A stretch of 44,707 nucleotides of DNA from IMG/VR virus record IMGVR_UViG_3300006802_000014, positions 1 through 44,707 of that record; one strand, 5' to 3'. This DNA is from a virus. A model generated the notes under the pieces. It was not told the origin of the DNA. It did not search any database and was given only the letters and a program-made list of their open reading frames with translations. The position numbers and the translations under genes are program-made. This document shows positions 10,940-17,754 of the stretch, piece after piece (within the stretch, counting starts at the first letter, position 1; each line of letters begins with the position of its first letter).

Positions 10940-11059
10940 TGGATCGGCTGGGAGTCGAACCCAGATCTCCGAGGGCAGCGGGCAATTACTCCGCCCATCC
11001 CCGGCGTGTGTCCGCAGCAACGTTCGCGAGACGCCGCCGACTCTCACAACCGACGATCC
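10940..11059 (-). ncRNA. tRNA-like element C (120 nt)
   Basis: Minus strand. The 5' GGATCGT pairs with 3' CCGATCC at six of seven positions, and discriminator A follows. T-arm CTGGG-TTCGACT-CCCAG is canonical. The hairpin GGGCG-GAGTAAT-TGCCC lies where an anticodon arm would be (loop triplet GTA, but no U33), with a 15-nt variable region. The acceptor-to-arm segment is 56 nt instead of about 19 and contains CGGCGT/ACGCCG. Element A shares the same acceptor 3' strand. An alternative hairpin CGCC-GGGGATG-GGCG (10992-11006) would replace the anticodon-like arm and show GGA in its loop. Confidence 0.45.
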
Positions 11060-11068
11060 GTGTAGAAG

Positions 11069-11089
11069 CCCCCCGGATCTCCCGAGGGG
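11069..11089 (-). terminator. hairpin upstream of tRNA-like element C
   Basis: Minus strand CCCCTCGG-GAGAT-CCGGGGGG followed by CTTCTAC: an 8-bp helix with one G-T pair. It lies between the 84-aa gene and element C. The tail is poor in T, so it is a weak terminator or a processing hairpin. Confidence 0.4.
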
Positions 11090-11104
11090 CGAGGGCTGGA
11101 CTGA

Positions 11105-11359
11105 CTACGGATAGATCCGGAAGTCACCTTTAGGGGTCACCTGAAACCACAACACCTTGCCCTCGCGGGACACAATCGCGTATTGATCGGTCGTGTCGTA
11201 GTACCGCACCTCACCGCCGACAACTTGCCGGTCACAATTCCACAGCCGAGGGTCAGTCGCCGCGACACGCTCTTGCATTGCTTCGCGCTTACGGGCCATT
11301 GCATTCGATGCACGAATCGTCGCGGGGGTCGGCAACACTGTTCCAAGCCAGTCCTTCAT
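11105..11359 (-). CDS. first gene of the leftward operon, hypothetical
   Basis: 84 aa; not recognised. The N-terminal half is helical and basic (RASNAMARKREAMQERVAA) and the C-terminal half is strand-like (YDTTDQYAIVSREGKVLWF). It follows the leftward promoter by about 50 bases, with CTCGGGAG nine bases before ATG. A 17-codon reading frame beginning at the predicted transcription start ends in ATGA overlap with this start. Confidence 0.8.
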   Translation of the reverse strand: MKDWLGTVLPTPATIRASNAMARKREAMQERVAATDPRLWNCDRQVVGGEVRYYDTTDQYAIVSREGKVLWFQVTPKGDFRIYP

Positions 11360-11415
11360 CTGTCATCACTCCCGAGTCTTGTTCGCCACTCGCACATCGC
11401 GTTTGGCATGTCGGC

Positions 11416-11443
11416 ATTGTAGCAACGGCTCGCATTCTGTCCA
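11416..11443 (-). promoter_or_regulatory. leftward early promoter
   Basis: Minus-strand TGGACA (11438-11443), 16-bp spacer, TACAAT (11416-11421). The same -10 and spacer occur in the ParB-like operon promoter. The predicted start coincides with an ATG six to seven bases after the -10. Confidence 0.7.
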
Positions 11444-11650
11444 GAACAATCCAGAAGAATTCCACGACATTGCCCCAAGTCACTGCCGGGCCTGGACTTG
11501 CGTCGACAGATTTTTCCGTTTGCCGCTCGGTTTCTGGTCGGCGGATCGCGTTCGACTCGGAAAAACAAGGGTGGAATTGATTCGCGGAATTCTCGGAAGT
11601 GCGTCCAGTTCGGTTTTCCTAGGCTGGAATGCGTCCCGTACCATCAGGAC

Positions 11651-11779
11651 ATGGTCCTCTTGTTGCCCCTCCCCGCTGCCGTCTTGCTCGATCCCGCCTC
11701 TGTGCTGGCCGGGCTGGCCGTGGGAATTGCCGTGGGCCTGGCGGTGGGGGTGTTGACTCGGGGCAGGGGGGCGGTATAA
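11651..11779 (+). CDS. possible small membrane peptide
   Basis: 42 aa. An almost wholly hydrophobic Gly/Ala/Val helix (LAGLAVGIAVGLAVGVL) ends in TRGRGAV. AGGA lies four bases upstream. The reading frame ends inside the -10 box of the rightward promoter, which argues for caution: the hydrophobic codons may only reflect GC-rich control DNA. Confidence 0.3.
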   Translation: MVLLLPLPAAVLLDPASVLAGLAVGIAVGLAVGVLTRGRGAV

Positions 11780-11780
11780 T
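11753..11780 (+). promoter_or_regulatory. strong rightward promoter
   Basis: TTGACT (11753-11758), 16-bp spacer, TATAAT (11775-11780): the best consensus match in the control region. Transcription should begin near 11787 and reach the terminator at 11834-11878, making an RNA of about 90 nt. Confidence 0.8.
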
Positions 11781-11785
11781 GCCCG

Positions 11786-11878
11786 ATGTCTGAGGAGGTG
11801 CATCTCACCAGACCACAAATTGACGTTGAACAACCCGCTGAGCTTTGCCGATGCACCGGTGAAGCCAGCGGGTTTTTT
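11786..11878 (+). ncRNA. short terminated transcript, possible small RNA or leaderless mini-gene
   Basis: The interval between the strong promoter and the intrinsic terminator. An ATG at 11786 sits at the predicted +1 and opens a 54-codon frame (MSEEVHLTRPQIDVEQPAEL...) ending at 11950, past the terminator. The RNA contains GAGGAGG and a GC-rich 3' hairpin. It may be a regulatory RNA, an attenuated leader for the rightward genes, or the message of a small protein. Confidence 0.45.
11834..11878 (+). terminator. rho-independent terminator with long loop
   Basis: CCCGCTG (11834-11840) pairs with CAGCGGG (11866-11872), followed by six T. The 25-base loop is long and may itself fold (CACCGGTG). 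Confidence 0.75.
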
Positions 11879-11880
11879 CT

Positions 11881-11929
11881 TGGACTGACCGATAGGCGGT
11901 ACAACCCGGTTCGATTCTGGGCAGTCCAC
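11881..11929 (+). ncRNA. 49-nt minimal tRNA-like structure
   Basis: TGGACTG (11881-11887) pairs perfectly with CAGTCCA (11922-11928). A T-arm CCCGG-TTCGATT-CTGGG is in exact position before the 3' strand. Only one small hairpin (ACCG-ATAGG-CGGT) replaces the D and anticodon arms. It begins just after the terminator T-run. It resembles an acceptor/T-arm minihelix, and may be a tRNA mimic, a tRNA relic or part of an attachment site, although no integrase gene was found. Confidence 0.4.
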
Positions 11930-12361
11930 TCGCGGGTGTTTCCGCGATAGGCCGCGTCGCCACTTCCAGACATGGGGCGATGTGCTGAGGCTGACGGCGG
12001 GTCTGGTGAGGTGGCTACCACCTGGGGGAAGTTCCCGGGGGTTGGGGGCTCCTACGGGGGCAAAGTGGAAACGCCAGCAACAATCGCCGTGGGGCCATAA
12101 GCCATGCAAGCCCGAGAATTCGGTTCCATGTCTTGTGGTAACGACCGACCGACCGGCTCCGTGTTTCAGATCAGTGAACTAGCGTTGCGTTGTGTGACTT
12201 GCACTTGTGACTGGTGACTAGCCGACTGGCAGCCGGGACAAGGGACAGAGACGACAGCAGACCGGGTAACTGAAACATGGTGAGGGAAGGGAAGGGAGTA
12301 TCCCGGTGGGCAGGGTGCGCAAAGAGAAAGACGACTTCCGTACACATGAGTAGATGACACG
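11930..12361. other. intergenic control region before the rightward gene block
   Basis: 432 bases without a convincing gene. Three GTGACT repeats lie at 12194-12199, 12207-12212 and 12214-12219, with a related CGACTGG just after, as in an operator or iteron cluster. A purine-rich stretch at 12235-12297 has five GGA motifs upstream of the first rightward gene. AGGTGG-CT-ACCACCT-like symmetry occurs near 12005-12020. No sigma70 promoter matching consensus was found here, so the rightward operon may be read from 11753 by antitermination or from a phage-specific promoter. Confidence 0.5.
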
Positions 12362-12853
12362 ATGACAGCACTTACGATGACCACGTTGACCGAGGCTTGG
12401 CGCAACGTCGAGCAGATCACCCTGCAGCACATCCACGCCGATGGCAGCCGAACGGAGTACACCGGATTCCCGGGCCGTATCACGCGACTGCCCAACGGCA
12501 TCGTGTCGATCTACCTGTCTGACCCACCGAATCAGCCGGTGTATCTGCGGTATACGATGGTCTCGCACGAAAGCGACGTAATTGAGCCGGTGCCCGACAC
12601 CGTGTTCCCGCGATTCGAGGTTATCCAGATCATCGTCAAGGAACGCTGTCGCGACGATTGGAAAGCCTACCTCACCTTTAAGGATCGCGAGTTTCCCGGG
12701 ATGGCCTACGAAATCTCGATGTGTGACGACACACCCGAGAAGGCGTTGAAACTCGCATACGACCTGTTTCTGGACGACCCGGAATTCCATGCTGACAACC
12801 ACTGGGAAATGACCGAGGCCAACGCCGACAAGTTTCGGGACGATGCACGATGA
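12362..12853 (+). CDS. two-domain fusion protein of the MTLREL paralogue family
   Basis: 163 aa. The N-terminal domain (about 1-75) begins MTALTMTTLTEAW and matches the small standalone proteins downstream (LTEAW, then a Gly-x-Pro turn, then a hydrophobic strand). The C-terminal domain (about 80-163) has VIQIIVKE, DDWKAYLTFKDREFPGMAYE, TPEKALKLAY and HWEMTEANADKFRDDAR, and is nearly identical to the standalone 85-aa protein at 13522. So this gene is a fusion, or the ancestor of the split pair. It begins after a degenerate GAGTAGATGACACG site. Function unknown; the acidic C-terminal domain may bind a partner protein. Confidence 0.85.
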   Translation: MTALTMTTLTEAWRNVEQITLQHIHADGSRTEYTGFPGRITRLPNGIVSIYLSDPPNQPVYLRYTMVSHESDVIEPVPDTVFPRFEVIQIIVKERCRDDWKAYLTFKDREFPGMAYEISMCDDTPEKALKLAYDLFLDDPEFHADNHWEMTEANADKFRDDAR

Positions 12854-12868
12854 CACTCAGAGAACTGA
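12803..12868. repeat. 66-bp direct repeat, copy 1
   Basis: Repeated at 13729-13794 with a single base difference. It covers the last codons of the fusion gene, the ATGA junction and the first codons (MTLREL) of the following gene, so the duplicated unit included the junction of two genes. Confidence 0.9.
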
Positions 12869-13095
12869 CAGAGGCGTGGATTCAAAACCGAATCGTAGAA
12901 TGGCACGATGCCGAGGGGACATTGTGTGGCGGGATGCCGGTTGCGATGGATCGTGGCCGGGGTGAGGTCGGCGCGTTGTTCCAAATGTGGGGCAAGGAAA
13001 ACAGGTCATGGTCGGTGCGATTCCGCCTGGTCGATACCATGCGATTCGACAAGGTCCGCCAAGAGTTCGAAACCGATCTGGAGCCCCTGACATGA
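12850..13095 (+). CDS. MTLREL-family paralogue
   Basis: 81 aa. It starts MTLRELTEAW, then N-R-I-V-E-W-H-D-A-E-G-T, then GGMPVAM. It shares these with 13776, 13985 and 14209. ATGA overlap with both neighbours. The family is not recognised; each member looks like one helix followed by a small beta sheet. Confidence 0.85.
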   Translation: MTLRELTEAWIQNRIVEWHDAEGTLCGGMPVAMDRGRGEVGALFQMWGKENRSWSVRFRLVDTMRFDKVRQEFETDLEPLT

Positions 13096-13313
13096 CACCC
13101 CTGACACTCACCGCGTTAGCCCAGGCCTGGAAGGCCATCACCTACATCATCGTGCGCGATGAGCACGGCACGACACACATCGGCTTCCCCAAGAAGATCG
13201 AACGGATGCTCGACGGGGTCGTATCGATCACGCTCGCCGACTGGGACAAGGACGGGGTGACCGTGCTGTATCGCCTCATTGGCGACGGGGAAACGCTGGA
13301 GCCTGTGCAATGA
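13092..13313 (+). CDS. MTLREL-family paralogue
   Basis: 73 aa. It reads MTPLTLTALAQAWKAITYII, then HIGFPKKIERML and a beta-rich end. It is closest to the N-terminal domain of the 163-aa fusion (TLTEAW, GFP.RI.RL.NG.VSI). The start is set by ATGA. Confidence 0.8.
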   Translation: MTPLTLTALAQAWKAITYIIVRDEHGTTHIGFPKKIERMLDGVVSITLADWDKDGVTVLYRLIGDGETLEPVQ

Positions 13314-13525
13314 GACTACGCGACCTCCGTGACATGATCGCCAACCGCCAGCCGATCATAAGCTGCCGAATTGGGGAACCATACGAAGTCGTTCCATATG
13401 ACTACACCCAGTATCGTGGACGGCTCGCAATTCATTGCACCAGCCCGGATGGTGGCTTCGATACGATCATCATGACACTTGACCCCTCGCCCACATACGA
13501 CCCACTGGACGCCGAATTGCGATGA
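13310..13525 (+). CDS. MTLREL-family paralogue
   Basis: 71 aa. It starts MRLRDLRDMIANRQ. Its C-terminus DPSPTYDPLDAELR is shared with the 75-aa gene at 13985. ATGA coupling on both sides. Confidence 0.8.
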   Translation: MRLRDLRDMIANRQPIISCRIGEPYEVVPYDYTQYRGRLAIHCTSPDGGFDTIIMTLDPSPTYDPLDAELR

Positions 13526-13779
13526 CCGCCTTTCCCCAATTCTCAGTCATTCAAATCATAGTCGCGGAAAAAGGAAGCGACGACTGGCGGGCCTTTCTCG
13601 CCTTTCAGGATCGCGAATGGCCCGGCATGGCCTATGAGATTCGAGGCAGTGGCAACACGCCAGAGAAAGCTTTAGCGATGGCTTACGGGCTGTTCCTCGA
13701 TGATCCTCGCGAACACGCTACCGACCATTGGGAAATGACCGAGGCCAACGCCGACAAGTTTCGGGATGATGCACGATGA
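13522..13779 (+). CDS. standalone homologue of the fusion's C-terminal domain
   Basis: 85 aa. Residues 7-85 align without gaps to the C-terminal half of 12362-12853, e.g. VIQIIV.E, FLAFQDREWPGMAYE and HWEMTEANADKFRDDAR. It has 8-10 acidic residues in the last 30. No catalytic motif is visible. Confidence 0.85.
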   Translation: MTAFPQFSVIQIIVAEKGSDDWRAFLAFQDREWPGMAYEIRGSGNTPEKALAMAYGLFLDDPREHATDHWEMTEANADKFRDDAR

Positions 13780-13794
13780 CACTCAGAGAACTGA
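13729..13794. repeat. 66-bp direct repeat, copy 2
   Basis: Second copy of the repeat at 12803-12868, spanning the junction between the 85-aa and 64-aa genes. Confidence 0.9.
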
Positions 13795-13970
13795 TGGACG
13801 CTTGGGAAAAGGGCCGCTCTGTCATGATGACCGACGCCGAAGGGACCGTGTATGTCGGCACCCCCGAAGTCCTGCACATGCTGCCGGATCGCCGAGTAGC
13901 CGTTGTGCTACGGGTCGGCCATTCGCATTCCGGGGAACACGACCACAAGCAGATCATCTACGCCTTTTAG
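13776..13970 (+). CDS. MTLREL-family paralogue
   Basis: 64 aa. It begins MTLRELMDAWEKGRSVMMTD, then AEGTVYVGTPEVLHML, and ends in a His-rich stretch (HSHSGEHDHK) that could bind metal; this His cluster is not in the other paralogues. It ends with TAG and leaves a 14-base gap, the only non-overlapping junction in the chain. Confidence 0.8.
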   Translation: MTLRELMDAWEKGRSVMMTDAEGTVYVGTPEVLHMLPDRRVAVVLRVGHSHSGEHDHKQIIYAF

Positions 13971-13984
13971 ACGGAGCCCACACG

Positions 13985-14212
13985 ATGACACTACGAGAAC
14001 TAACCGACGCGATCGCATTCGGCAGGGAACTGTACTGGACCGTCACCGTCGACGGTTTCCCCGAGGGCTGGCCCGGGGTGCCGTTTGCAATGCAACGCGA
14101 GCCAGACGGTGGAATATGGGTCGGGGTGGACTTTCAGGGGCAGCTAAAGACGTTCACCTTCTATCCCCGATCCTCGCCAACCAATGACCCCCTGGACGCC
14201 GAACTCCGATGA
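13985..14212 (+). CDS. MTLREL-family paralogue
   Basis: 75 aa. It starts MTLRELTDAIAFGRELYW, has G-V-P-F-A-M-Q and ends SSPTNDPLDAELR, the same tail as 13310-13525. The start follows GGAGCCCACACG. Confidence 0.8.
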   Translation: MTLRELTDAIAFGRELYWTVTVDGFPEGWPGVPFAMQREPDGGIWVGVDFQGQLKTFTFYPRSSPTNDPLDAELR

Positions 14213-14424
14213 CGTTCACCGAACTCACCGCCGCCATGTGGGACGGCCGCAGCGTGACGCTGACAGACCACGCGGGCCGGACCATTGAGGCGGTCCCCAT
14301 GGGGATTCTTTGCACTGCGGGATGCCGAGACAGACGGCTATATGTGGTCTCCTGCCGATCAAAGACCACCCGTCCAAGGAGCGGAACTATCGTCATGCGG
14401 TTCGACTCGTTCGACAGCAACTGA
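14209..14424 (+). CDS. MTLREL-family paralogue, last of the chain
   Basis: 71 aa. It starts MTFTELTAAMWDGRSVTLTD, followed by HAGRTIEAVPMGIL. It ends before the first autonomous promoter. Coupled by ATGA to the previous gene. Confidence 0.8.
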   Translation: MTFTELTAAMWDGRSVTLTDHAGRTIEAVPMGILCTAGCRDRRLYVVSCRSKTTRPRSGTIVMRFDSFDSN

Positions 14425-14482
14425 ACGCCCGATAACCTTTTTGCTGGTCCCGACAAAATGGAAAATTCTTCCGGATTGTGTC

Positions 14483-14511
14483 TTGCAAACTCATCCTCAC
14501 GCCGATATAAA
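14483..14511 (+). promoter_or_regulatory. sigma70 promoter, cassette 1
   Basis: TTGCAA (14483-14488), 17-bp spacer, TATAAA (14506-14511). The spacer and the upstream ATTCTTCCG are nearly identical to the promoter at 14943-14971. It drives the 104-aa gene. Confidence 0.8.
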
Positions 14512-14562
14512 TAACCCATCAGACGTGAGTGACGCCTGACCCACTAACCCGAGGAGATGACG

Positions 14563-14877
14563 ATGACGACTGCCAAGCAAGTGTGGAATTCGACCAAGTC
14601 CGACTACAGCAACTGGCGGGCCAGCAAGGTGATTTGCCCGACCCTGATGCCCGCGATTGGCACCAAGGTTGACGTGATGTTCGGCACCTCGCGTGGGCTG
14701 CTGTCCGGTGTTGTGATCGGCCACGACGAGCAAGCCCCCATCGTTGAGTTCACCATGAGGAACGGCAAGACCCGCCAAGGGCTTTGCACCGTGCAGGTCA
14801 AGGGCTTCAAGATGTACTCCGAGGAAACGGGCAAGGGATACATTCCCGTGAAGTACATGGCTTGGCTCGCCGAGTAG
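14563..14877 (+). CDS. hypothetical protein, autonomous cassette
   Basis: 104 aa. It starts MTTAKQVWNSTKSDYSNW and has two strand-rich parts, including GTKVDVMFGTSRGLLSGVVI and a C-terminal GKGYIPVKYMAWLAE; perhaps an SH3-like small fold. The second of two adjacent ATGs is chosen because GAGGAG lies six bases before it. It has its own promoter and terminator, so it is expressed independently of the coupled chain. Function unknown. Confidence 0.85.
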   Translation: MTTAKQVWNSTKSDYSNWRASKVICPTLMPAIGTKVDVMFGTSRGLLSGVVIGHDEQAPIVEFTMRNGKTRQGLCTVQVKGFKMYSEETGKGYIPVKYMAWLAE

Positions 14878-14895
14878 CCCCCACCCAGTCAACGT

Positions 14896-14917
14896 CCCCC
14901 GGGAATCGGCCCGGGGG
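14896..14917 (+). terminator. hairpin terminator
   Basis: CCCCCGGG-AATCGG-CCCGGGGG followed by TCTTC. A strong 8-bp stem 18 bases after the stop; the T-tract is short. Confidence 0.65.
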
Positions 14918-14942
14918 TCTTCGGAATTCTTCCGATTTCCTG

Positions 14943-14971
14943 TTGACAACTCATCCGCACGCCGATATAAA
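14943..14971 (+). promoter_or_regulatory. sigma70 promoter, cassette 2
   Basis: TTGACA (14943-14948), 17-bp spacer, TATAAA (14966-14971), nearly a copy of cassette 1. It is the closest match to consensus in the window. An ATG at 14978 falls at the predicted +1, in frame with the gene below. Confidence 0.85.
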
Positions 14972-15019
14972 TACACCATGTCAGCCGCACAACGCGGACG
15001 ACGCCAACCCCGGGAGATG

Positions 15020-15268
15020 ATGACAGTGACCGCGAAACTCAGCCCCGCAATGGAAGCCACCTTGGAACTGTTTCGGCAGGAATGCGTGAAACATCCCGCT
15101 GGAGTGCAGTGGGTTGAGGGGACAACCCAGCGGACGATTAACGCCCTCGTCGCTCGCGGCAAGCTGAAGATCTCGCGAAGCACACCGGGCGGATACGTCA
15201 CGTTCCTCGGAGAGAAGCGGGCTCGTTGGCACCAAGACATGTGGTATGCCGTCGCGGACGCCAAGTAA
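15020..15268 (+). CDS. small winged-helix-like or DNA-binding candidate, hypothetical
   Basis: 82 aa from ATG 15020. The pattern TLELFRQECVKHP, then TQRTINALVARGKLKISRST, then GGYVTF looks like a helix-helix-wing (a small winged-helix), so DNA binding is possible. Start uncertain: GGGAG at 15012-15016 favours 15020 or GTG 15026, while 14978 would give a leaderless 96-aa form in the same frame. Confidence 0.7.
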   Translation: MTVTAKLSPAMEATLELFRQECVKHPAGVQWVEGTTQRTINALVARGKLKISRSTPGGYVTFLGEKRARWHQDMWYAVADAK

Positions 15269-15279
15269 CTCCCCACCCC

Positions 15280-15302
15280 GCCCCCTGCACATCGCGGGGG
15301 GC
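15280..15302 (+). terminator. hairpin terminator
   Basis: GCCCCC pairs with GGGGGC around a 10-11 base loop containing CACATCGC, followed by TTCCTTCCTCTT. It shares CACATCGC with the next terminator. Confidence 0.65.
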
Positions 15303-15331
15303 TTCCTTCCTCTTGTCTGGAGTCTTGAGAC

Positions 15332-15490
15332 ATGTCGACTATTGAATGGCGCTGGACCAGTGGCGACGGAAGTCAACTTGGCTTTGATCAATTCGGCCAC
15401 TATTGGTGGCGCAAGAATTCGGATTGTGTGCGATTGGAATGTACTCGATTGGCAGCAATCGAGTGGAAACGGCGCAATAACGTTTCCTGA
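15332..15490 (+). CDS. small hypothetical protein
   Basis: 52 aa, rich in Trp and aromatic residues (MSTIEWRWTSGDGSQLGFDQ, then FGHYWWRKNSDCVRLE). GGAG lies ten bases upstream of ATG, and the gene is bracketed by two terminator hairpins. Not recognised. Confidence 0.65.
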   Translation: MSTIEWRWTSGDGSQLGFDQFGHYWWRKNSDCVRLECTRLAAIEWKRRNNVS

Positions 15491-15502
15491 TGTGTGTTAC
15501 CC

Positions 15503-15525
15503 GCCCCCGGCACATCGCCGGGGGC
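15503..15525 (+). terminator. hairpin terminator
   Basis: Nine-bp perfect stem GCCCCCGGC-ACATC-GCCGGGGGC followed by TTCCTCT. Confidence 0.75.
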
Positions 15526-15555
15526 TTCCTCTGACCTGATGGAGATGATGACACG

Positions 15556-15726
15556 ATGAACGAATACCAGATTGCGTTTGACGACTCGACCGCCCCAAGC
15601 GGATGGCACATCGTCGAGACATTTGAGGCCGCAGATGACAAGGCGGCCAACGCATATGCCGACGAGTACTACGCCGATCAGGAATGGTGGGTGTTGGATG
15701 CCAACGGCAGGAACATCAACGGCTGA
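15556..15726 (+). CDS. small acidic protein
   Basis: 56 aa, very acidic (MNEYQIAFDDSTAPSGWHIV, then ADDKAANAYADEYYADQEWW). The GGAGATGATGACACG ribosome cassette precedes ATG. DNA mimicry is conceivable for a small acidic phage protein, but there is no direct evidence. Confidence 0.7.
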   Translation: MNEYQIAFDDSTAPSGWHIVETFEAADDKAANAYADEYYADQEWWVLDANGRNING

Positions 15727-15751
15727 CGCGATCCCGACAACTGATTCACAC

Positions 15752-15774
15752 GCCCCCGGGACTGGCTCGGGGGC
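15752..15774 (+). terminator. hairpin terminator
   Basis: GCCCCCG pairs with CGGGGGC around GGACTGGCT. There is no T-tract, so it may be a stability hairpin. Confidence 0.5.
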
Positions 15775-15814
15775 AACTATTAAGCCCCACTGAAGAGTTC
15801 ACAACGGAGAAGAA

Positions 15815-16039
15815 ATGTCCCTCTACCAACAGGTTGTCAATCGCGTGCGCCGCTCGCCATTCCCTGAATACGTTGAAGCCGCATGGATGGGAACCGAATA
15901 CGTAATCCGAGACGACCGCGCCGGCCCCGGCTCGCTCTACAGTGCGGACGGTGTTGAGTTCGTCTCGCGACTCGGCACCCCCGCGTATGCCATGATGCCG
16001 CCGATTCTGTACTGTGGCGGTCCCCGTTGCTCTTTCTGA
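15815..16039 (+). CDS. hypothetical protein
   Basis: 74 aa; not recognised. It starts MSLYQQVVNRVRRSPFPEYV after GGAGAAGAA. The C-terminus has PPILYCGGPRCSF. Confidence 0.75.
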   Translation: MSLYQQVVNRVRRSPFPEYVEAAWMGTEYVIRDDRAGPGSLYSADGVEFVSRLGTPAYAMMPPILYCGGPRCSF

Positions 16040-16049
16040 AAGCCCCCTG

Positions 16050-16238
16050 ATGCCTACCTACACCACCGCAACCGCCGCCGCCAAACTTGGCCTCTGCCCC
16101 AGGCAGGTCGGCCAACTCGCACGCCAGCACGGGCTCGGCCGCAAGGTCGGCAGAGACTGGCAGTTCACCGCCGCCGAGGTTCGCAAGATGCATGGACGCC
16201 CGACAGTGGGACGCCCACGGAAGGGGGCCGCACGATGA
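16050..16238 (+). CDS. excisionase/MerR-like HTH protein
   Basis: 62 aa. The core TTATAAAKLGLCPRQVGQLARQ followed by GRKVGRDWQFTAAEVRK is the HTH_17 (excisionase/MerR-type) pattern: helix-turn-helix, small wing, then helix. The tail is basic (GRPRKGAAR). Such proteins bend DNA or regulate promoters. No integrase was found, so a regulatory role is likelier than excision. No good ribosome site precedes ATG, so translation probably depends on the upstream gene. Confidence 0.75.
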   Translation: MPTYTTATAAAKLGLCPRQVGQLARQHGLGRKVGRDWQFTAAEVRKMHGRPTVGRPRKGAAR

Positions 16239-16519
16239 CCCATCCCATCATCGCCCGGCTGTACATCGACCGACAGCGGCAGCAACGCCTGATCGAAGAC
16301 GCTCAGGCCAAATGGCAAGACGCCGCTCGTGCTGTCCTGGCCTTGCACCCAGCAGCCCGCGAGTACGGCACCGATGCCGACTACCACGCGGCAGTTGACC
16401 AGTACAATGACTGGCTGGTCCGCATCCAGGATCTCATCGCCGACCTCGCCGTCACCTCTGCCGCGATTGCCGAGTCGCTCGCTGGCCCAGGCTCCCATCT
16501 GACAGGAACCACGCTATGA
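16235..16519 (+). CDS. hypothetical coiled-coil protein
   Basis: 94 aa, helical throughout (RLYIDRQRQQRLIEDAQAKW and DWLVRIQDLIADLAVTSAAI). ATGA overlap with the HTH gene. Not recognised. Confidence 0.8.
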   Translation: MTHPIIARLYIDRQRQQRLIEDAQAKWQDAARAVLALHPAAREYGTDADYHAAVDQYNDWLVRIQDLIADLAVTSAAIAESLAGPGSHLTGTTL

Positions 16520-16875
16520 CAGCCCCCGCCCTCCGCTACCACATCGCCGGGTTGGCCAAATTCATCCAGCCCGGGGGAATGGTCCTGCTCTCGCCGCAGG
16601 ACGAACTCAACCGGCAGGAGTTCCTTACATTGACCGCCGGAATCCTCCACGCCCGCGAGTACCGCACCGATGTCATCGTCTGGTGCCGAGAGGGTCGCTG
16701 GGAGTGGGCCACGTCTGCATACCCCCTGCCGATCAGCGCCTATATCGACGGTGTTCCGGAATGTCAGATCACCGTCACTGATGACACCCAGACAGTCCGC
16801 CGGGTAATCCAGCTCGGCGAGTCCACCGTTACCCCTGTGCCGCCCCCTGTGCCCGAAAAAAGGAAGTCCCGATGA
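16516..16875 (+). CDS. hypothetical protein
   Basis: 119 aa; not recognised. Helical N-terminal third, then strands (TDVIVWCREGRWEWATSAYP) and a Pro/Lys-rich tail (PPPVPEKRKSR). ATGA overlaps on both sides. Confidence 0.8.
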   Translation: MTAPALRYHIAGLAKFIQPGGMVLLSPQDELNRQEFLTLTAGILHAREYRTDVIVWCREGRWEWATSAYPLPISAYIDGVPECQITVTDDTQTVRRVIQLGESTVTPVPPPVPEKRKSR

Positions 16876-17165
16876 TCCGCTCCGCCGCCCTCACTGGCAT
16901 CGCCCTGGGCCTCGCCGTTGCCGCTTGTGTGTCCCGAGTCCCGCCAGTCAATCGGCCAGCGTCTACGGGCCGCGTGGTGCGTTTGGCGACGGTTCCCCAG
17001 GGTGCCGCCTTGCCGCCAGTCGACACGACGTACATTACCGAGTTCCACGGCCGCAAGTATCGCGTTTCGTGGGCCGCCTTGGATATCCCCTGTTGGATGG
17101 TGGGTGGGGACGTGTTGTCGATCAACGGGACTGTGCGATATCAGGACCGCCGCGTCAAACCTTGA
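16872..17165 (+). CDS. small lipoprotein
   Basis: 97 aa. The N-terminus MIRSAALTGIALGLAVAAC ends in a lipobox (AVAAC, Cys 19), so the mature protein is anchored to a membrane by lipid. The 78-residue mature part has a short strand-rich core (FHGRKYRVSWAALDIPCW). It is the last rightward gene and overlaps the end of the convergent tail gene by 11 bases. Possible roles are superinfection exclusion or lysis; neither is proven. Confidence 0.85.
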   Translation: MIRSAALTGIALGLAVAACVSRVPPVNRPASTGRVVRLATVPQGAALPPVDTTYITEFHGRKYRVSWAALDIPCWMVGGDVLSINGTVRYQDRRVKP

Positions 17166-17754
17166 ACCCGTACCAAGAGCCCTGCCAGTGCAGATGCAGC
17201 AGGTCCCCGTTTGCTCCGGTGTAAGTAACGGGGACTGTATGCACTGTTCCCGTGATTGTTGCGTTCCCAAATCCATCATATGTGCCACGAGCGAACAGGC
17301 CGGGGCTGGCAACGACGCGAACATTGAGAGACAGGCCACCATCCGTACTGCTGGATAGCAAGTCGACAACCTGAAATCCAATCGATGTGGTATTCAACAT
17401 CCACGATCCATTGATCGGCCCAATCTGATTTCCGACTGATGGTATGCTTCCACTGTATCCGCCCATCATCACATTGCCAAAAGTGCCCTGTCCAGTGGAG
17501 TTTATTGCAATCGGAATCGGCCCGTTGAACAAGTGCGAATACTGCGATCCGTAAGTGTTCGGCTTGCTCACAGTGAATCCCATATTTGCATACCCAACAC
17601 TATAGATCCCGCCTGACCCGTCGAATTGATTGAACGGAACAAACATCCCCGTAATTCGCATGCAGGCAAAGGCCGGAATTTCCTCCCCGCTGTCGTTTCT
17701 GACTGGCCAGTATTGTTGGTTCTCGCCTGCCGATGTGCCGAGTAGCCCAATCAT
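17155..17754 (-). CDS. late tail-associated protein
   Basis: 199 aa. It opens GLLGTSAGENQQYWPVRNDS and is rich in Gly, Ser, Asn and Thr with predicted strands throughout, as in fibre or tail decoration proteins. It is the last gene of the virion block and ATGA-coupled to the tail-tip gene. Assignment is from position and composition. Confidence 0.7.
   Translation of the reverse strand: MIGLLGTSAGENQQYWPVRNDSGEEIPAFACMRITGMFVPFNQFDGSGGIYSVGYANMGFTVSKPNTYGSQYSHLFNGPIPIAINSTGQGTFGNVMMGGYSGSIPSVGNQIGPINGSWMLNTTSIGFQVVDLLSSSTDGGLSLNVRVVASPGLFARGTYDGFGNATITGTVHTVPVTYTGANGDLLHLHWQGSWYGFKV

Follow-up and report, generated by a model that had tools for sequence, protein, structure and literature searches.

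As a rule, the accessory genes of phages are single orphans without recognisable relatives. Among the closest described counterparts of the array analysed here are the anti-defence islands and early accessory loci of phages, which share with it clustered small open reading frames, high presence/absence variation and orphan proteins. They differ from it in two respects: the members of the array belong as paralogues to a single domain family and are encoded by overlapping genes of an operon, and neither an anti-defence activity nor an anti-defence family is known for them. A further likeness, confined to the units flanking the array, is with the mobile regulatory cassettes of T4-type phages, reportedly described by Arbiol et al. 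in 2010 as promoter-stem-loop elements (cited in PMC4177764). There too a promoter and a stem-loop recur between different genes, but the phage group and the sequence are unrelated, and the linkers inside the array are promoterless, in-frame coding ends with an SD and an overlap. In predicted topology, an N-terminal helix followed by five strands, the array members resemble Sm-like small barrels (Hfq, YaeO/Rof, WYL domain), although this likeness lacks sequence support. Likewise, the predicted beta-beta-beta-alpha(-beta) order of a second, acidic domain recalls HicB and ribosomal S5-type dsRBD-like folds, but for HicB the comparison is negative by profile and no partner toxin was seen.

The array is a case of phage accessory-gene shuffling, already known as a kind, with new protein families. 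We read it, with a probability of about 0.55, as a hypervariable accessory operon of recombining small binding proteins directed at varying host targets. It lies in an IMG/VR record of an uncultured tailed phage, classed as linear, whose 44,707 bases constitute the window. The minus strand of the window carries large-terminase, portal, head-maturation, head-morphogenesis, DNA methyltransferase, helicase and ParB-like genes. When the terminase was compared with bacterial genomes, its nine best relatives all came from Planctomycetes, which makes a planctomycete the probable host and our best guess, the assignment being drawn from terminase identities of 44-50% only.

Eight coupled genes and two recurring domains

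Eight plus-strand open reading frames occupy positions 12362-14424, in agreement with the original prediction of a chain of eight coupled genes. The first, g1 (12362..12853, 163 aa), encodes a g3-type MTLREL barrel domain (~6-82) fused to an acidic beta-beta-beta-alpha-beta domain (~83-163). It is followed by g2 (12850..13095, 81 aa), an MTLREL protein present in the related contigs L003-L007 and the most widespread array member; by g3 (13092..13313, 73 aa), of the same family and found also in L005 (85%) and L011; and by g4 (13310..13525, 71 aa), an MRLRDL variant with a DPLDAELR tail whose L011 relative begins with MTLREL. The acidic domain stands alone in g5 (13522..13779, 85 aa). The chain continues with g6 (13776..13970, 64 aa), an MTLREL protein that has its 5' end and upstream junction in common with g2; g7 (13985..14212, 75 aa), an MTLREL protein with a DPLDAELR tail and a relative in L007; and g8 (14209..14424, 71 aa), an MTFTEL variant. 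Six of the seven gene junctions are 4-nt ATGA overlaps. The predicted coupling holds in this form except between g6 and g7, which do not overlap and are separated by a 14-nt gap containing GGAG. Immediately upstream of g1, no promoter was detected.

Seven of the eight products are versions of one small domain, comprising the MTLREL helix and a small domain, as had been proposed. Pairwise alignments compared with 500 shuffles support the relationships g1N-g3, g2-g6, g3-g6, g2-g3, g2-g7, g6-g7 and g6-g8. Leave-one-group-out HMMs, trained on other subfamilies only, recovered g1N, g2, g3, g6, g7 and g8 of the window with 20.6-43.8 bits, against ~8.6-11 bits for the best of 2000 shuffles. The product of g4 reached a non-significant 3.9 bits in this test; its L011 relative, which is 91% identical and starts with MTLRELRDM, scored 12.9 bits versus 9.0 for shuffles, and g4 can be placed in the family through this relative only. 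The MTLREL residues are encoded by differing codons between members (e.g., ACACTCAGAGAACTG, ACACTACGAGAACTA and ACACTCCGCGAATTG), indicating that the helix is kept at the protein level and not merely copied. The claim that one MTLREL product is fused to an acidic domain occurring alone at 13522 also held, the C-terminal domain of g1 and g5 being 72% identical over 81-82 aa.

For orthologous pairs, dN/dS ranged from 0.09 to 0.43 (Nei-Gojobori), and the members are therefore genuinely coding and constrained. Judged from these comparisons, gene content and order turn over while the proteins themselves are under purifying selection, so that the term fast-evolving, used in the original prediction, applies to the make-up of the locus but not to point change in its orthologs.

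Junction modules and array variants in related phages

Several gene ends recur within the array. The LDAELR tail noted earlier as common to two products is found in g4 and g7 as DPLDAELR, spanning 42 nt at 83% identity; the corresponding DPLDAELR/ATGAC module lies at 13485..13526 (+), and recurs at 14172-14213 and in L003/L004/L011. A third shared end, absent from the original prediction, consists of WEMTEANADKFRDDAR plus the MTLREL of the following gene, and links g1/g2 with g5/g6. Here, the module at 12801..12868 (+) has a near-identical copy at 13727-13794, whereas the flanks show ~43-77% identity. Within this ~68-nt tract, 59 of 60 positions agree in two central windows, and its sharp ends give it the appearance of a signature left by a recent copy or conversion event. 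In five phages, ten junctions carry GGAG with its spacing to the following ATG fixed at exactly 8 nt, and the motif falls either within the last part of the preceding gene or immediately behind it (window 13092, 13310 and 13985; L005 2942, 3160 and 3357; L006 434; L007 829 and 1074; L011 3916). A different end, GGACGCCGAA.T.CG-ATGAC, is seen at further junctions (window 13522 and 14209; L003 497; L011 4125). The shared tails thus appear to be largely DNA junction modules, made up of in-frame 3' ends, a ribosome-binding stretch and an overlap. Of the two recombining domains originally proposed, the MTLREL and acidic domains stand, and the shared tails are better described as junction modules than as a protein part. 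Recombination at these junctions is the mechanism that we infer from their sequences.

Scans of IMG/VR retrieved five contigs with g2 as query, and eleven with the HTH protein encoded downstream of the array. The resulting sample of arrays comprises six contigs besides the window, of which L003 and L004 carry the same array and several are fragments; moreover, metagenome assembly of repeated genes could make or break apparent arrangements. Compared with g1-g8 of the window, the arrays read g2-g3-X-g8 in L005, g2-Y-g8 in L006, g3-g4-g8 in L011, and a 72-aa open reading frame followed by g7-g2-g1 fusion in L007. The L006 contig begins close to the first array gene, so this array may be incomplete at one end. 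L003/L004 have a single gene, in which the g2 body is joined to a DPLDAELR tail without that tail's barrel, and the conserved gene g15 comes directly next. Overall, the arrays of relatives contain one, three or four members, varying in content and order with coupling retained, and the four arrays with a g8-type gene all end with it. These arrangements bear out the earlier picture of a recombining repertoire, the same genes occurring in other numbers, orders and fusions among related phages. The g1-type fusion is also present at L007:1074-1646, and it is therefore not an assembly accident of the window. In the same contig, at L007:1506-1646, what looks like a deletion has joined g1 to the 3' end of the HTH gene, generating a hybrid open reading frame that seems to be a snapshot of array decay.

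In L014 and L017, no array member was found upstream of the HTH gene. An HNH-like gene lies upstream of it in L017, and ParB-like and PAPS-reductase-like genes replace the array at the corresponding place in L014 (1373-3839), all of them named by eye. Nor was an array found in 41 terminase-bearing relative contigs, most of which are fragments possibly not reaching the locus. The content of the locus varies between related phages at a conserved place, as in anti-defence islands.

Predicted folds and possible roles

No credible family match was obtained for any member in Pfam, PHROGs or NCBIfam, nor in PADLOC, whose models describe defence and not anti-defence; the PADLOC WYL model matched g8 at E=0.039 only. 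Accordingly, a match to a housekeeping family, which the original prediction had named as the result that would speak against it, did not occur in these four libraries. Isolated-phage genomes yielded no relatives of g2 or g5, and matches to g3 only at E>=0.7; no relatives were detected in bacterial genomes, and 13 planctomycete genomes gave weak matches only. Among PDB sequences, the MTLREL profile matched designed TIM barrels, with the alignment confined to an 'R-L-EAW' helix, and these matches were discarded. On the strength of these searches, the MTLREL and acidic domains would be new, previously unnamed protein families.

In AlphaFold models of 20 members, a helix is combined with five strands (mean pLDDT 82, pTM 0.67; other models 68-72), the g2 model having a pLDDT of 82, which suggests a small five-stranded barrel of Sm/SH3-like type preceded by a helix. 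Foldseek returned no match at E<=0.001 for the members, and the fold class is therefore a lead only. The topologically sensible matches were Hfq (1kq2; probability 0.91, rmsd 1.7 over 52 columns, E=1.7), a designed SH3-like barrel, the WYL proteins CapW and PafBC, and YaeO/Rof (6jie; probability 0.63); among viral models, a 67-aa protein of Gordonia phage VanLee superimposed with an rmsd of 1.9 over 53 columns. The acidic domain was modelled in beta-beta-beta-alpha-beta order, and resembles the ribosomal S5 N-domain (Foldseek probability ~0.9, E ~0.07-0.3). Its membership in HicB was rejected by profile comparison (probability 0.8%, from a small comparison alignment), and Pfam revealed no HicA toxin among the neighbouring g4, g6 and g2 products. 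An obligate heteroheptameric Sm ring built from seven members is disfavoured, because the arrays of relatives have one, three or four.

In the reading that we prefer, that of a hypervariable accessory operon, recombination at the junction modules would duplicate, delete and reassort members. Each module would supply homology, a ribosome-binding stretch and a coupled start, so that a new gene would arrive already coupled and, given that stretch and the overlap, gains and losses would spare the translation of neighbours. The products would be small binding proteins that have the MTLREL helix in common, vary in the surface of the barrel, and act during infection on host targets that vary as well. 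Their most plausible single role would be counter-defence, followed by host-takeover regulation. The multiplication, fusion and reassortment of one domain family, at junctions that can be seen in the sequence, offers a concrete route for phages to make as well as swap small host-interacting proteins. The array and its relatives provide about nine subfamilies that can be tested against host defences, and the new families can be used to annotate a phage group recurring in metagenomes.

A narrower explanation, possible but clearly less probable, is that the locus is a true anti-defence island, whose members would each block a single host defence system and whose gene content would follow the defences present locally. 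This explanation fits the small size of the proteins, their orphan sequences and stand-alone nature and their high presence/absence turnover, as well as the position of the array in a block of small plus-strand genes (~11650-17165), on the other strand from terminase, portal and head genes. Nevertheless, the missing matches in Pfam, PHROGs, NCBIfam and the defence models of PADLOC count against it, and selection on orthologs is purifying and not diversifying.

The products could also be host-takeover regulators, whose Sm/Rof/Hfq- or WYL-like barrels would act on RNA polymerase, Rho, ribosomes or RNA. We consider this unlikely, though less so than the explanations that follow. The predicted helix and five-stranded barrel, with Hfq, YaeO/Rof, CapW and PafBC among the Foldseek matches, point in this direction. 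Rof uses its N-terminal helix to bind Rho (PMC11018626), and the equivalent helix is the part conserved in the array. However, the E-values of these matches all exceed 0.6, and small barrels readily match one another. Membership in Rof/YaeO (PF07073) was rejected, with no Pfam match and a probability of 0.7% in an hhalign comparison with one Rof sequence; the WYL match of g8 is too marginal to help, and why a regulator should require turnover of the array is not obvious.

Mostly selfish or neutral accumulation, in which junction modules ease duplication and array size drifts with little benefit to the phage, is improbable. It would account for the repeats at junctions, for the single-member or empty loci of L003, L014 and L017, and for the truncated fusion in L007, but hardly for the low dN/dS values across members or for coupling that survives reshuffling. 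Least probable of all is a modular diversification system in which SD-bearing in-frame junctions would let recombination reassort barrel cassettes with translation left intact, and the co-translated paralogues would form mixed Sm-like oligomers whose composition sets binding.

Regulatory elements and small genes around the array

Upstream of the array, a TTGACT-16-TATAAT promoter and an intrinsic terminator enclose a structured RNA of ~100 nt (11753-11883, +). The unit recurs in relatives (L005:2273-2401, L007:1-117, L011:3180-3315 and L017:1690-1815) with the consensus TTGACN-16-TATAATG and a variable body, both promoter and terminator being visible in L017 as well. In the window, L005, L007 and L011, the RNA folds far better than shuffled sequences (z -3.9 to -5.7), and an Rfam search over 11000-17300 gave no match. 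Candidate roles for it are those of a phage small RNA or of an attenuator preceding the array. A conserved 42-aa hydrophobic protein (MVLLLPLPAAVLLDPASVLAGL...), probably a membrane protein, is encoded at 11653-11779 (+), upstream of the array, and occurs also in L003-L005, L011 and L017.

Small single-gene units come after the array. A promoter-leader element composed of TTGNNN-17-TATAAAT, a small hairpin and an SD is present at 14483-14560 and 14943-15030 of the window, and at L005:3623, L006:896, L010:476, L011:4870 and, as a diverged copy, L017:2665. It precedes different small genes in each phage, and its hairpin shows a few compensatory changes. Linkers resembling G+C-rich hairpins or terminators separate small genes at 15276-15307, 15500-15562 and 15748-15774, and are repeated in relatives. 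Further downstream, at 16051-16238 (+), lies the gene for the small HTH_17 protein, which has a conserved RPTVGRPRKGA tail and is found in 11 related viral contigs.
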